A stretch of DNA of 47,488 nt from Bacteroidales bacterium (GTDB lineage Bacteria > Bacteroidota > Bacteroidia > Bacteroidales > Bacteroidaceae). This document shows positions 1-7,516 of this stretch, in pieces (the first letter of the stretch is position 1; every line of letters starts with the position of its first letter). The notes beneath the pieces were generated by a model. The model did not search any database. It was not told the origin of the DNA and worked only from the letters and a program-made list of their open reading frames with translations. Made by a program: the position numbers and the translations under genes. The stretch covers positions 10,100-57,587 of the forward strand of contig JAUMYJ010000010.1 of assembly GCA_030528715.1 (NCBI GenBank), read 5' to 3'.

Positions 1-1147
1 CTACGGCCTCGGCAATGCGGGCTTCGGTGGCACAGAGTGATATGCGAATGTAGCGGCTACCATTGCTGCCGAAGATAAATCCTGGTGTGAGAAAGATATG
101 TGCGTGTTGCAATACATGCTCTGTCAGTGTCTCAGCCGTATCAATATGGTCGGGGATACGCCCCCATAGAAACATGCCTACTTGCTTCGGGTCGAATGCA
201 CAACCTAGCAGTTGCATGGCCTCTTCTGCCAATGCACGGCGGCGGCTATACACACCAATGTTGGCCTCTTCGTGCCATGCGGCTGTATTGTTATAAGCCT
301 CAGCCGCTGCAAGTTGTAAGGCACGGAATGTGCCAGAGTCAATGTTGCTCTTTACCTTCAATAGCCAACTGATAAATTCGGCTTTACCCGCTACCAGGCC
401 CACACGCCAGCCTGGCATATTGTGGCTTTTACTCATAGAGTTAAATTCGAGGCAGCAATCTTTGGCGCCTGCTATTTGTAGCAGGCTGAGCGGCTCATGA
501 TTGAGGATAAGGCTATAAGGGTTGTCGTTGATAATGACGATGCCGTGATGCTTGCCAAAGGCCACTAGCCGTTCAAATGTAGCACGCTGTGCGGCTGCTC
601 CCGTAGGCATGTGTGGATAATTGACCCACATCAAGCGTACGCGAGAGAGGTCTAGCTCTTCTAACGCATCAAAGTTAGGCTGCCAGCCTAGCTCGGGGGT
701 AAGGTCGTAGTGCACTACCTCGGCGCCAAGCAGTTGGCTTAGTGCCGTGTAAGTAGGGTAGCCTGGGTTGGGTACTAGCACTTGTTCGCCTGGATTGACA
801 AAGGCGAGTGTCGTATGTAGAATACCTTCTTTTGAGCCAATGAGTGGCTGTATCTCACAGGTGGCATCGAGTGATACGCCATAGGTGCGGCTATACCATG
901 TAGCCATGGCGTGGCGTAGCTCGGGTGTACCGATGGTGGGCTGATAGCCATGCGCATCGGGGCGTTGGGCTTCGCGGCAGAGTGTCTCTATGGTTGCCTC
1001 CGAGGGAGGTAGGTCAGGGCTGCCAATGGCTAAGCTAATCACGTCAACACCAGCAGCACGCATGGCGGCTACTTCCTTGCCTTTGCGGCTAAAATAGTAT
1101 TCGTTGACCAAGCTTAAACGCTCGGCAGGGGCAATCGTTTTTGTCAT
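1..1147 (-). CDS. PLP-dependent class I/II aminotransferase (partial, 3' end outside window)
   Basis: Reading the reverse strand from the ATG at 1147 gives 382 codons with no stop before the window edge, so the C-terminus is missing. The protein starts MTKTIAPAERLSLVNEYYFS. It shows the fold-type I aminotransferase pattern: a substrate-loop region SLAIGSPDLP near residue 40, a VNYPHMPTGA segment, and the PLP-binding lysine in SMSKSHNMPGWR (K240). It follows pheA by 37 nt on the same strand, which suggests it performs the final transamination of phenylpyruvate or hydroxyphenylpyruvate to Phe or Tyr. The substrate is inferred from that context; sequence alone would also allow an aspartate or LL-diaminopimelate type enzyme. 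It should share the pheA attenuator upstream. Confidence 0.88.
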   Translation of the reverse strand, partial: MTKTIAPAERLSLVNEYYFSRKGKEVAAMRAAGVDVISLAIGSPDLPPSEATIETLCREAQRPDAHGYQPTIGTPELRHAMATWYSRTYGVSLDATCEIQPLIGSKEGILHTTLAFVNPGEQVLVPNPGYPTYTALSQLLGAEVVHYDLTPELGWQPNFDALEELDLSRVRLMWVNYPHMPTGAAAQRATFERLVAFGKHHGIVIINDNPYSLILNHEPLSLLQIAGAKDCCLEFNSMSKSHNMPGWRVGLVAGKAEFISWLLKVKSNIDSGTFRALQLAAAEAYNNTAAWHEEANIGVYSRRRALAEEAMQLLGCAFDPKQVGMFLWGRIPDHIDTAETLTEHVLQHAHIFLTPGFIFGSNGSRYIRISLCATEARIAEAV

Positions 1148-1184
1148 ACACCTATGGTTGTTCATATTTGTTGCGTTTCAGCTA

Positions 1185-2075: not shown

Positions 2076-2106
2076 AAAACCTGCTCACGTACTCGGAGCA
2101 GGTTTT
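2076..2106 (-). terminator. Attenuator terminator hairpin of the pheA operon
   Basis: A perfect 11-bp inverted repeat (AAAACCTGCTC / GAGCAGGTTTT) with a 9-nt loop, 45 nt upstream of the pheA ATG. In the pheA direction the right arm ends in a run of four U. It lies downstream of the aromatic-rich leader peptide. Its 5' arm overlaps a segment that can instead pair with a sequence just after the leader stop codon. Position and alternatives fit an attenuator terminator better than the end of dnaA transcription 900 bp away. Confidence 0.75.
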
Positions 2107-2163
2107 CATGTGTTGTCTTTGTGCTTGCCTTGGGCAGGCTCATGGCCATGTACGACTGCTCCG
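2094..2163 (-). promoter_or_regulatory. Predicted antiterminator (region 2:3) of the pheA attenuator
   Basis: On the transcribed strand CGGAGCAG (2163 to 2156) is perfectly complementary to CTGCTCCG (2101 to 2094), the 5' arm of the terminator hairpin. The two foldings exclude each other. The upstream arm begins three nt after the leader stop codon. A ribosome that finishes the leader would cover it and allow termination; one stalled on the Tyr/Phe codons would leave it free. I see no convincing region 1:2 hairpin. Confidence 0.65.
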
Positions 2164-2165
2164 CT

Positions 2166-2225
2166 CTACGCTGGGGTAAAGAAGTAAAAGTAGCCGTAAA
2201 AGTAGGTAGCCATGGCAGCGTTCAT
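2166..2225 (-). CDS. Tyr/Phe-rich leader peptide of the pheA operon
   Basis: A 19-codon open reading frame, MNAAMATYFYGYFYFFTPA, with codons 8-16 reading Tyr Phe Tyr Gly Tyr Phe Tyr Phe Phe. Eight of nine consecutive residues are aromatic end products of the pathway it precedes. It begins about 33 nt after the expected transcription start set by a TAnnTTTG element and ends three nt before the antiterminator arm. In known attenuators such a peptide senses charged tRNA rather than acting as a protein. A second in-frame ATG (codon 5) could also serve as the start. The composition and placement make chance unlikely, but expression is not shown. Confidence 0.75.
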   Translation of the reverse strand: MNAAMATYFYGYFYFFTPA

Positions 2226-2264
2226 AAGGCTTGCAATGTTTAAGAGGTTAGCTTATCTTGAGTA

Positions 2265-2272
2265 CAAAGTTA
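2265..2272 (-). promoter_or_regulatory. Probable pheA operon promoter (-7 element)
   Basis: TAACTTTG on the minus strand matches the Bacteroidota -7 consensus TAnnTTTG. It would start transcription near 2258, ahead of the leader peptide. No TTG or TTTG is seen at the usual 20-nt spacing upstream, so the -33 element is weak or absent. Confidence 0.5.
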
Positions 2273-7070: not shown

Positions 7071-7516
7071 TAGTACTTAATAAACGAAGCAATGGCCACG
7101 TCTAAAATTAGTGTGAAGTGTTTGACTATGGGTCTTGCCTCTGTGTGTGGGCGAGTTGTGGAGGAAAAAGGCTCGTGTGTATGTACATGATCTTGTTTTA
7201 TTATTTATATTATATTAGTGGTGTGTCTATGGGGTGTAAATTGCAAATAGAGTTATTCTCGTGGTGAGCTGTTGTTGACTTCTCTTGTGTTAATAGTCAG
7301 GTATGGCTAGTCTGCGCCGTGGCTTTGGTAGCAGCTTTTGCTGGTATCGGTAGGCTTGTAATCTTTTGAGTGGCTTATATAAAATAGATATTCAAGGAGG
7401 AGGCTGTATCTTAGAGCGTGTAGGGAAAATAAGAAGTGTGTGAAGTGTGTGAAGTGATGCCTTTTTGAAGGGCTGAGACTATTTTTGCTCTAAAAGTGCC
7501 AATTTTGGTGTTTTTG
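7071..7516. other. Intergenic region upstream of the exb operon promoter
   Basis: About 450 nt with no supportable gene. It contains an AT-rich stretch near 7195-7217 and a 9-bp tandem repeat (GAAGTGTGT, 2.7 copies, 7433-7456). No tRNA or recognisable riboswitch. Confidence 0.5.
7433..7456. repeat. Short tandem repeat, unit GAAGTGTGT
   Basis: Two full and one partial perfect copies of a 9-bp unit, about 60 nt upstream of the exb promoter. Function unknown. Confidence 0.7.

Follow-up and report, generated by a model that had tools for sequence, protein, structure and literature searches.

A predicted Phe/Tyr-responsive transcription attenuator upstream of pheA in Bacteroidia

Introduction

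A short open reading frame rich in phenylalanine and tyrosine codons precedes pheA in a 47,488-nucleotide stretch of a Bacteroidales genome (hereafter the window, meaning the whole stretch that was analysed), raising the question of whether, and by what mechanism, this frame controls the genes behind it. In the enteric pheA and trp leaders, ribosome stalling at codons for the end product favours an antiterminator, and such ribosome-mediated attenuation requires a leading ribosome that keeps pace with RNA polymerase; in the thr (Thr, Ile) and ilvGMEDA attenuators, one leader serves several amino acids. Within the same phylum, work on Flavobacterium psychrophilum has yielded strong indications that leader peptides attenuate amino-acid operons, and has described a structured 5′ element, also found in other Flavobacteriaceae, at both pheA and hisG (PMC9723704), and short ORFs reminiscent of leader peptides have been noted in Bacteroides thetaiotaomicron (PMC7366714).

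An earlier note on this DNA read the locus as a ribosome-mediated attenuator of pheA and its aminotransferase. Our analysis upholds that reading: because leader anatomy, conservation, stem covariation and operon content agree, we put the probability of classic ribosome-mediated transcription attenuation, with Phe and Tyr as its two inputs, at roughly 0.9.

Results

Leader, hairpins and operon in the window

The features of the locus are collected in Table 1. The leader runs on the minus strand from an ATG at 2225-2223 to a TAG at 2168-2166 and encodes a peptide of 19 aa. The earlier note was right about the 19-codon frame with YFYGYFYFF as codons 8–16, but the interval it quoted, 2225-2166, is that of the whole frame, codons 8–16 occupying 2204-2178; it also correctly placed CGGAGCAG past the leader stop, but at a gap of three nt where there are two. 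Its TAACTTTG box at 2272-2265 of the minus strand agrees with the sequence, and its 11-bp terminator at 2106-2076, with a 5′ arm complementary to CGGAGCAG and pheA behind it, is present in all its parts.

Table 1 Features of the pheA leader, its operon and a related leader
Feature	Position	Strand	Basis
Predicted promoter −7 element TAACTTTG, TAnnTTTG type of Bacteroidota	2265..2272	−	Read from sequence
Leader mini-ORF MNAAMATYFYGYFYFFTPA, stop included	2166..2225	−	Read from sequence; ORF kind kept in relatives
Regulatory codons 8–16, YFYGYFYFF (4 Tyr, 4 Phe)	2178..2204	−	Read from sequence
Segment 1:2 hairpin (predicted anti-antiterminator), aromatic codons and antiterminator region	2152..2197	−	Folds, −11.3 kcal/mol; covariation in relatives
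Segment 2, predicted antiterminator arm CGGAGCAG	2156..2163	−	8-bp complementarity to 2101-2094; duplex −14.7 kcal/mol
Segment 3, CTGCTCCG, alternative partner of segment 2 or segment 4	2094..2101	−	Sequence and swap tests
Predicted terminator hairpin (segments 3:4), 11 bp, weak U tract	2076..2106	−	Folds, −17.2 kcal/mol
pheA, prephenate dehydratase, 281 aa	1185..2030	−	PF00800, E 2.4e-55
Class I/II aminotransferase, second gene	2..1165, runs on past window edge	−	Profile matches
Tyr-run leader and terminator-like hairpin upstream of symporter-like gene	L241 1945-2134 (G006:C94)	−	Covariance match

When ATG frames of 8–45 codons were scanned on both strands of the window, with the nested ATG of the leader counted as the same frame, the leader was the single frame to reach 8 Phe/Tyr per 10 codons. 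The runner-up, the short frame MYMILFYYLYYISGVSMGCKLQIELFSW at 7181-7267 of the plus strand, has 6, and none of 100 one-strand shuffles of the window exceeded this number. A chance ORF is ruled out by these shuffles together with the shuffle and reverse-complement controls in relatives given below.

A second in-frame ATG (2213) renders the start codon ambiguous. The promoter box starts 47 nt upstream of the first ATG and 59 nt upstream of the second, and in the relatives listed it lies 36–44 nt upstream in 20 of 23 and within 110 nt in 22 of 23; because 47 nt is nearer to the spacing of the relatives than 59 nt, the first ATG would fit better as the leader start. A box of the TAnnTTTG type, the promoter consensus reported for the phylum (PMC9723704), is found at most 110 nt upstream of 97 of 101 leaders, compared with 119 of 2020 mononucleotide shuffles.

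The terminator stem is formed by AAAACCTGCTC and GAGCAGGTTTT around a 9-nt loop. Its U tract consists of UUUU inside the stem only, followed by GCC, and a consensus terminator scan of the window did not list the hairpin; U runs after the stem are longer in relatives than in the window. A known Rfam element was ruled out by a scan of the window that returned 0 families at gathering score, Phe_leader included.

Further aromatic genes in the operon had been anticipated, and they were found downstream. The pheA product, which also matches NF008865 slightly under the cut-off (E 1e-61), is followed by an aminotransferase that scores highest against the NCBIfam models for LL-diaminopimelate and aspartate aminotransferases; because the listed models (25 of 70) all score under their cut-offs, any substrate assigned to it would be tentative. 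Four unknown residues lie close to its end at the genome locus (L111). Beyond the window, on the minus strand of L111, the third gene encodes a DAHP synthase/chorismate mutase (355 aa, PF00793 and PF01817) and the fourth, tyrA, a prephenate dehydrogenase (257 aa, PF02153), the successive gaps between the four genes being 19, 19 and 8 nt. Because these two genes follow, the operon is predicted to supply both Phe and Tyr, an output that the mixed leader codons would predict.

The leader is conserved in relatives

We searched upstream of pheA in relatives for an ATG frame of 8–45 codons with at least 7 (or at least 6) Phe/Tyr per 10 codons. The named loci are the best 80 of 563, of which 78 have enough upstream sequence, L012 and L075 being too short. 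The conserved Tyr/Phe mini-ORF that the earlier note had proposed looking for was recovered at the threshold of 7 in 73 of these 78, as against 1 of 1560 dinucleotide shuffles and 2 of 78 reverse complements. At the threshold of 6 the count is 74 of 78, the loci below it being L038, L052, L055 and L078; the L052 leader scores 5 and has a decayed appearance. Frames with at least 7 were also present at 27 of 29 family loci (controls: 0/580 shuffled, 1/29 reverse complement) and at 25 of the 29 best phylum loci (2/580 and 0/29). Permitting non-ATG starts added L105 and L139. The laboratory strain Phocaeicola vulgatus ATCC 8482 (L005) carries the same leader, in which the stop is located past arm 2.

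The retained set comprises 135 leaders with at least 6 Phe/Tyr per 10 codons, and none of the 135 contains fewer than two Phe or fewer than two Tyr. A 6-Phe/Tyr ORF at L154 ends 591 nt short of the end of the sequence upstream of pheA and was dropped as a chance occurrence. We also considered, and rejected, a broken pheA at L082 (one internal stop): the match there extends to residue 278 and that of the tree-identical L004 to residue 276, so the stop looks like a normal gene end.

In the aromatic runs, all 1131 of 1131 TTn/TAn codons have T or C as third base, a pattern that would be as Phe/Tyr coding demands and is partly circular, as the runs were preselected by their Phe/Tyr content. Of 96 leaders, 51 read the block behind the aromatic codons that contains arm 2 (GAAGCGGGA-like) in frame 0, 19 in frame 1 and 10 in frame 2; in the other 16, window included, the block lies past the leader stop. 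Because the arm persists while the reading frame shifts, selection at arm 2 acts on the RNA and not on the peptide. The spacing of arm 2 after the last aromatic codon (median 11 nt, range 2–16, n=135) rests on computed duplex ends and is merely suggestive.

One arm covaries with two partners

Covariation was examined in an alignment (A1) of the 96 leaders left after identical stretches had been removed from the 102 family leaders that have 6 or more Phe/Tyr; in the window row, arm 2 is placed about three bases off, so that the pairing of the window itself is invisible there. Compensatory changes, which the earlier note had suggested seeking in both stems, occur in each: the antiterminator stem (2:3) is paired in 93.0% of cells, with five pairs showing double changes and 20 double-change cells, and the terminator stem (3:4) in 92.6%, with eight such pairs and 39 such cells. 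For both stems, 0 of 500 shuffles matched the paired cells, the double-change cells or the covariation score. As many doubly changed antiterminator pairs arose in 4 of 500 shuffles, and the count of further antiterminator pair types was reached in 406 of 500, making that last measure uninformative. Slid versions of the stems were only 33–59% paired. At columns 51/140/162, a joint change across the three arms, from C-G-C to U-A-U, is seen in two sequences. Left unaided, RNAalifold drew the inner 1:2 stem and the terminator on A1, and a 1:2 hairpin pairing the aromatic codons appeared in 93 of 96 folds.

We further compared the pairing of arms from the same locus with that of arms exchanged between loci, the 1:2 combination here joining the pre-aromatic codons to the bases that follow arm 2 (outer 1:2). 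Among 59 representatives, own-locus pairing was stronger for all three combinations (z −7.2 for 2:3, −14.8 for 3:4 and −7.9 for 1:2; 0 of 5000 permutations matched), with three controls at z +2.5, 0.0 and −1.0. The motif search had misplaced arm 2 in at least L033 and L048 of this set, and fixed windows were used in the wider one: 68 representatives of the 135 leaders (<60% identity) gave z −12.6, −19.3 and −6.5, and 27 representatives outside the family gave −9.4, −11.5 and −4.9, in the same order. One fixed-window control gave z −0.4 and −1.6; the other, pairing the post-aromatic stretch with the terminator 3′ arm, was not clean (−3.1 and −3.7). Common descent inflates swap tests of this kind, though by less than the signal, as the controls suggest. 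As judged from these alignments, the 5′ arm of the terminator covaries with both of its rival partners, and antiterminator and terminator are predicted to be mutually exclusive through this shared arm. An RNA-polymerase pause site after arm 2 (A1 columns 59–64) was considered and set aside, the conservation there coming at least partly from pairing with the pre-aromatic codons (z −7.9 above).

Ribosome position and the predicted switch

Leaders were folded through arm 3 while the ribosome footprint was masked at set positions. In the window, the model formed 0 antiterminator (2:3) pairs without a ribosome, 8 with a ribosome stalled midway, 9 with one on the last Phe codon and 0 with one at the stop, which in the model is the switch expected of an attenuator. 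The antiterminator, scored as formed at 5 or more pairs, appeared in 130 of 135 leaders at the midway position, in 119 at the last codon, in 98 without a ribosome and in 67 at the stop. The proposal that the arm is free under a stalled ribosome and covered once the ribosome has reached the stop is thus reproduced in the window, but in 67 of the 135 leaders a ribosome placed at the stop does not keep the arm from pairing. As modelled, stalling would free arm 2 nearly everywhere, and its hiding otherwise is reproduced for part of the leaders. Because the antiterminator forms in so many leaders without a ribosome or with one at the stop, equilibrium folding does not reproduce the switch generally and kinetics must be assumed, chiefly where the stop is distant. 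Where it lies far past arm 2 (for example L002, Phocaeicola), basal termination is beyond what equilibrium folding can account for and would need ribosome release and re-forming of 1:2, or timing, which has to be assumed.

On the evidence of a conserved ORF, of conserved and covarying arms and of the order of the genes, the leader would be translated, its ribosome would stall and the operon would respond to amino acids as follows. The Tyr/Phe codons would be sequestered in the 1:2 hairpin, concealing the antiterminator arm. With ample charged tRNA-Phe and tRNA-Tyr, the ribosome would reach the stop, arm 2 would be concealed and 3:4 would end transcription before pheA. With either charged tRNA scarce, the ribosome would stall on the Tyr/Phe codons and open 1:2; arm 2, left free, would pair with arm 3 and block the terminator, and transcription would proceed through all four genes, from pheA to tyrA.

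Other readings of the leader were weighed against the same observations. TnaC is an example of nascent-peptide arrest, there responding to Trp, and the retention of a short aromatic peptide, in kind, would be in line with a leader peptide that arrests the ribosome on free Phe or Tyr and not through slow decoding. The order of Phe and Tyr, the length and the flanking residues of the peptide nevertheless vary, F and Y interchange, and the C-terminal part shifts its reading frame, all of which fits codon counting and makes peptide sensing very improbable. We regard as equally improbable that the leader governs the translation of pheA, or couples to it by reinitiation, in place of transcription termination: the weak U tract of the window terminator speaks for this, but a U run commonly follows the stem in relatives, stem 3:4 stops 45 nt short of the pheA start and leaves it outside the stem, and the leader stop lies 135 nt from pheA, whereas leader-to-gene distances reported for the phylum peak at 11–14 nt (PMC4833913).

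Least probable of all, and barely credible to us, is that the U-rich stretch is a protein-bound RNA element in which Tyr/Phe coding is incidental. The pairing of the aromatic codons in the 1:2 hairpin of most folds would suit such an element; the third-base pattern of these codons (partly circular, in Phe/Tyr-selected runs), an open frame that keeps its start and stop in most relatives and the match of the codons to the products of the operon argue against it.

Distribution and descent

PheA was found in 138 of 158 genomes of a phylum sample. Upstream DNA was inspected in all 34 other genomes of the same class that have PheA (four further genomes of the class lack it) and in 35 of the 103 PheA genomes of other classes, a non-random choice in which four came via the 30 best PheA matches and the rest were chosen by hand. 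A leader with at least 6 Phe/Tyr is present in 29 of the 34, being missing at L114, L116, L147, L148 and L139 (the last by ATG alone), and in 5 of the 35, one of which is the apparently fortuitous L154. The other four (L118, L119, L126 and L138) carry leaders with matching arms.

In a PheA tree of 69 rows, these four fall within a 42-row group (support 100/99) together with leader-bearing members of the class, their placement inside it being partly weakly supported and L138 forming a long branch. The 25 other-class rows labelled leaderless fall outside the group; upstream DNA was inspected for 21 of them, L224–L227 not being among these, and G184 bears the dropped L154 ORF. The leader thus apparently tracks the pheA gene lineage across class borders, and joint transfer of pheA with its leader would be the simplest reading. 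L114 and L116 (G171 and G136) have a PheA within the leader-bearing group yet are leaderless, an apparent loss in one family. In the same tree, the pheA of G015, which belongs to the genus of the genome analysed here, is identical to that of Alloprevotella rava (L004); the genus is therefore probably Alloprevotella and, judged by such named kin, the class Bacteroidia.

Of 41 family genomes searched with a covariance model built from A1, 30 gave a match, and never more than one, a result that shows a single copy and not detection, as many leaders of these genomes trained the model. Twenty-eight matches sit at a PheA match, and that of G019 lies at a contig end, beyond which pheA would begin. 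Nine of the 11 family genomes without a covariance match are also without a PheA match, and the other two (G020 and G024) have a distant one. G043, of the same genus and 99% complete, has no PheA match at E 0.001, which may mean that Phe synthesis has been lost inside this genus.

A Tyr-run leader at a symporter-like gene

The remaining match, in G006 (E 0.009), lies at a gene other than pheA. Its leader, MTTISHTASYYYYYYRTPLWGWEVYV, has six consecutive Tyr codons and is followed by a hairpin and a gene for a 525-aa sodium/solute symporter-like protein (best models under cut-off); by eye, a GTGGGG is able to pair with CCCCAC of the hairpin. Examination of 30 symporter loci, from 39 genomes with a match, revealed a Tyr-run leader at four (L242, L243, L245 and L249; count made without shuffle control), with runs of up to seven Tyr codons, and all four are among the ten symporter loci at 78% identity or more. 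We consider it a candidate attenuator that would sense Tyr and control a putative tyrosine importer.

Taking these lines together, we lean slightly towards a bivalent Phe/Tyr attenuator that predates the diversification of Bacteroidia, has been inherited and transferred with pheA, keeps its arm under a sliding frame and has Tyr-run kin on a sodium/solute symporter.

Discussion

The leader described here resembles the enterobacterial pheA leader (Phe_leader) in its end-product-rich peptide, its 1:2, 2:3 and 3:4 stems and a terminator before pheA, and differs from it in mixing Tyr with Phe codons ahead of an operon that also serves Tyr; common descent was compared by the Rfam scan alone, which gave no gathering-score match to Phe_leader in the window. 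Like the thr and ilvGMEDA attenuators, it would have a single leader respond to several amino acids from one pathway, the amino acids and the phyla being different.

The attenuation reported in F. psychrophilum is alike in phylum and in its proposed use of leader peptides, and for pheA the section of that report on 5′ cis-regulatory RNAs names neither a leader peptide nor its codons, and neither alternative stems nor input from both Phe and Tyr (PMC9723704). The uORFC-13-1 motif, with at least one Phe codon in an upstream ORF before a terminator, likewise stands upstream of an aromatic pathway gene, but this gene is aroF, and “Bacteroides” is absent from the main text of the report (PMC8632094). 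A Phe/Tyr leader with these stems is described in none of the phylum papers found, in the parts of them available to us, and Lopatovskaya et al. 2010 may bear on the question. The earlier note's description of the mechanism as rarely described in Bacteroidota is therefore fair, but to call it undescribed would be wrong (PMC9723704, PMC7366714). Because leader-peptide attenuation in the phylum has already been hinted at in print (PMC9723704), we regard the locus not as a new kind of regulator but as a well-supported two-input variant of textbook attenuation, shared by many relatives and seldom described.

If the attenuator works as predicted, tight coupling of transcription and translation would be a working regulator in a phylum for which the absence of Shine-Dalgarno sequences has been noted (PMC9723704). 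Were aromatic synthesis so controlled through much of the class, which comprises abundant gut and environmental bacteria, this coupling would be directly testable in cultured strains; a two-input amino-acid sensor would be on offer, and an RNA family without an Rfam match in the window would be gained. The distribution of the leader deserves a test at the bench.

Short frames of comparable kind were also observed at other amino-acid genes. In the genome analysed here, hisG (L187, G000:C8) is preceded by a leader (reverse complement of 1160-1234 and the hairpin that follows). It reads MPLYNIIFHHTHDPFGYRVGKFAV, a TACCTTTG box is present, the hairpin is strong, and by eye CGAGTAGGC is able to pair with GGCTTACTCG. 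Among 11 hisG loci, frames with at least 4 His per 10 codons occur in four relatives (L181, L182 with HHHHHH, L185 and L191; no shuffle control). Upstream of a trpE-like gene (L193), the short frame MQLFSNIWWWQSLIIFVERSY contains three consecutive Trp codons and is a possible trp leader.
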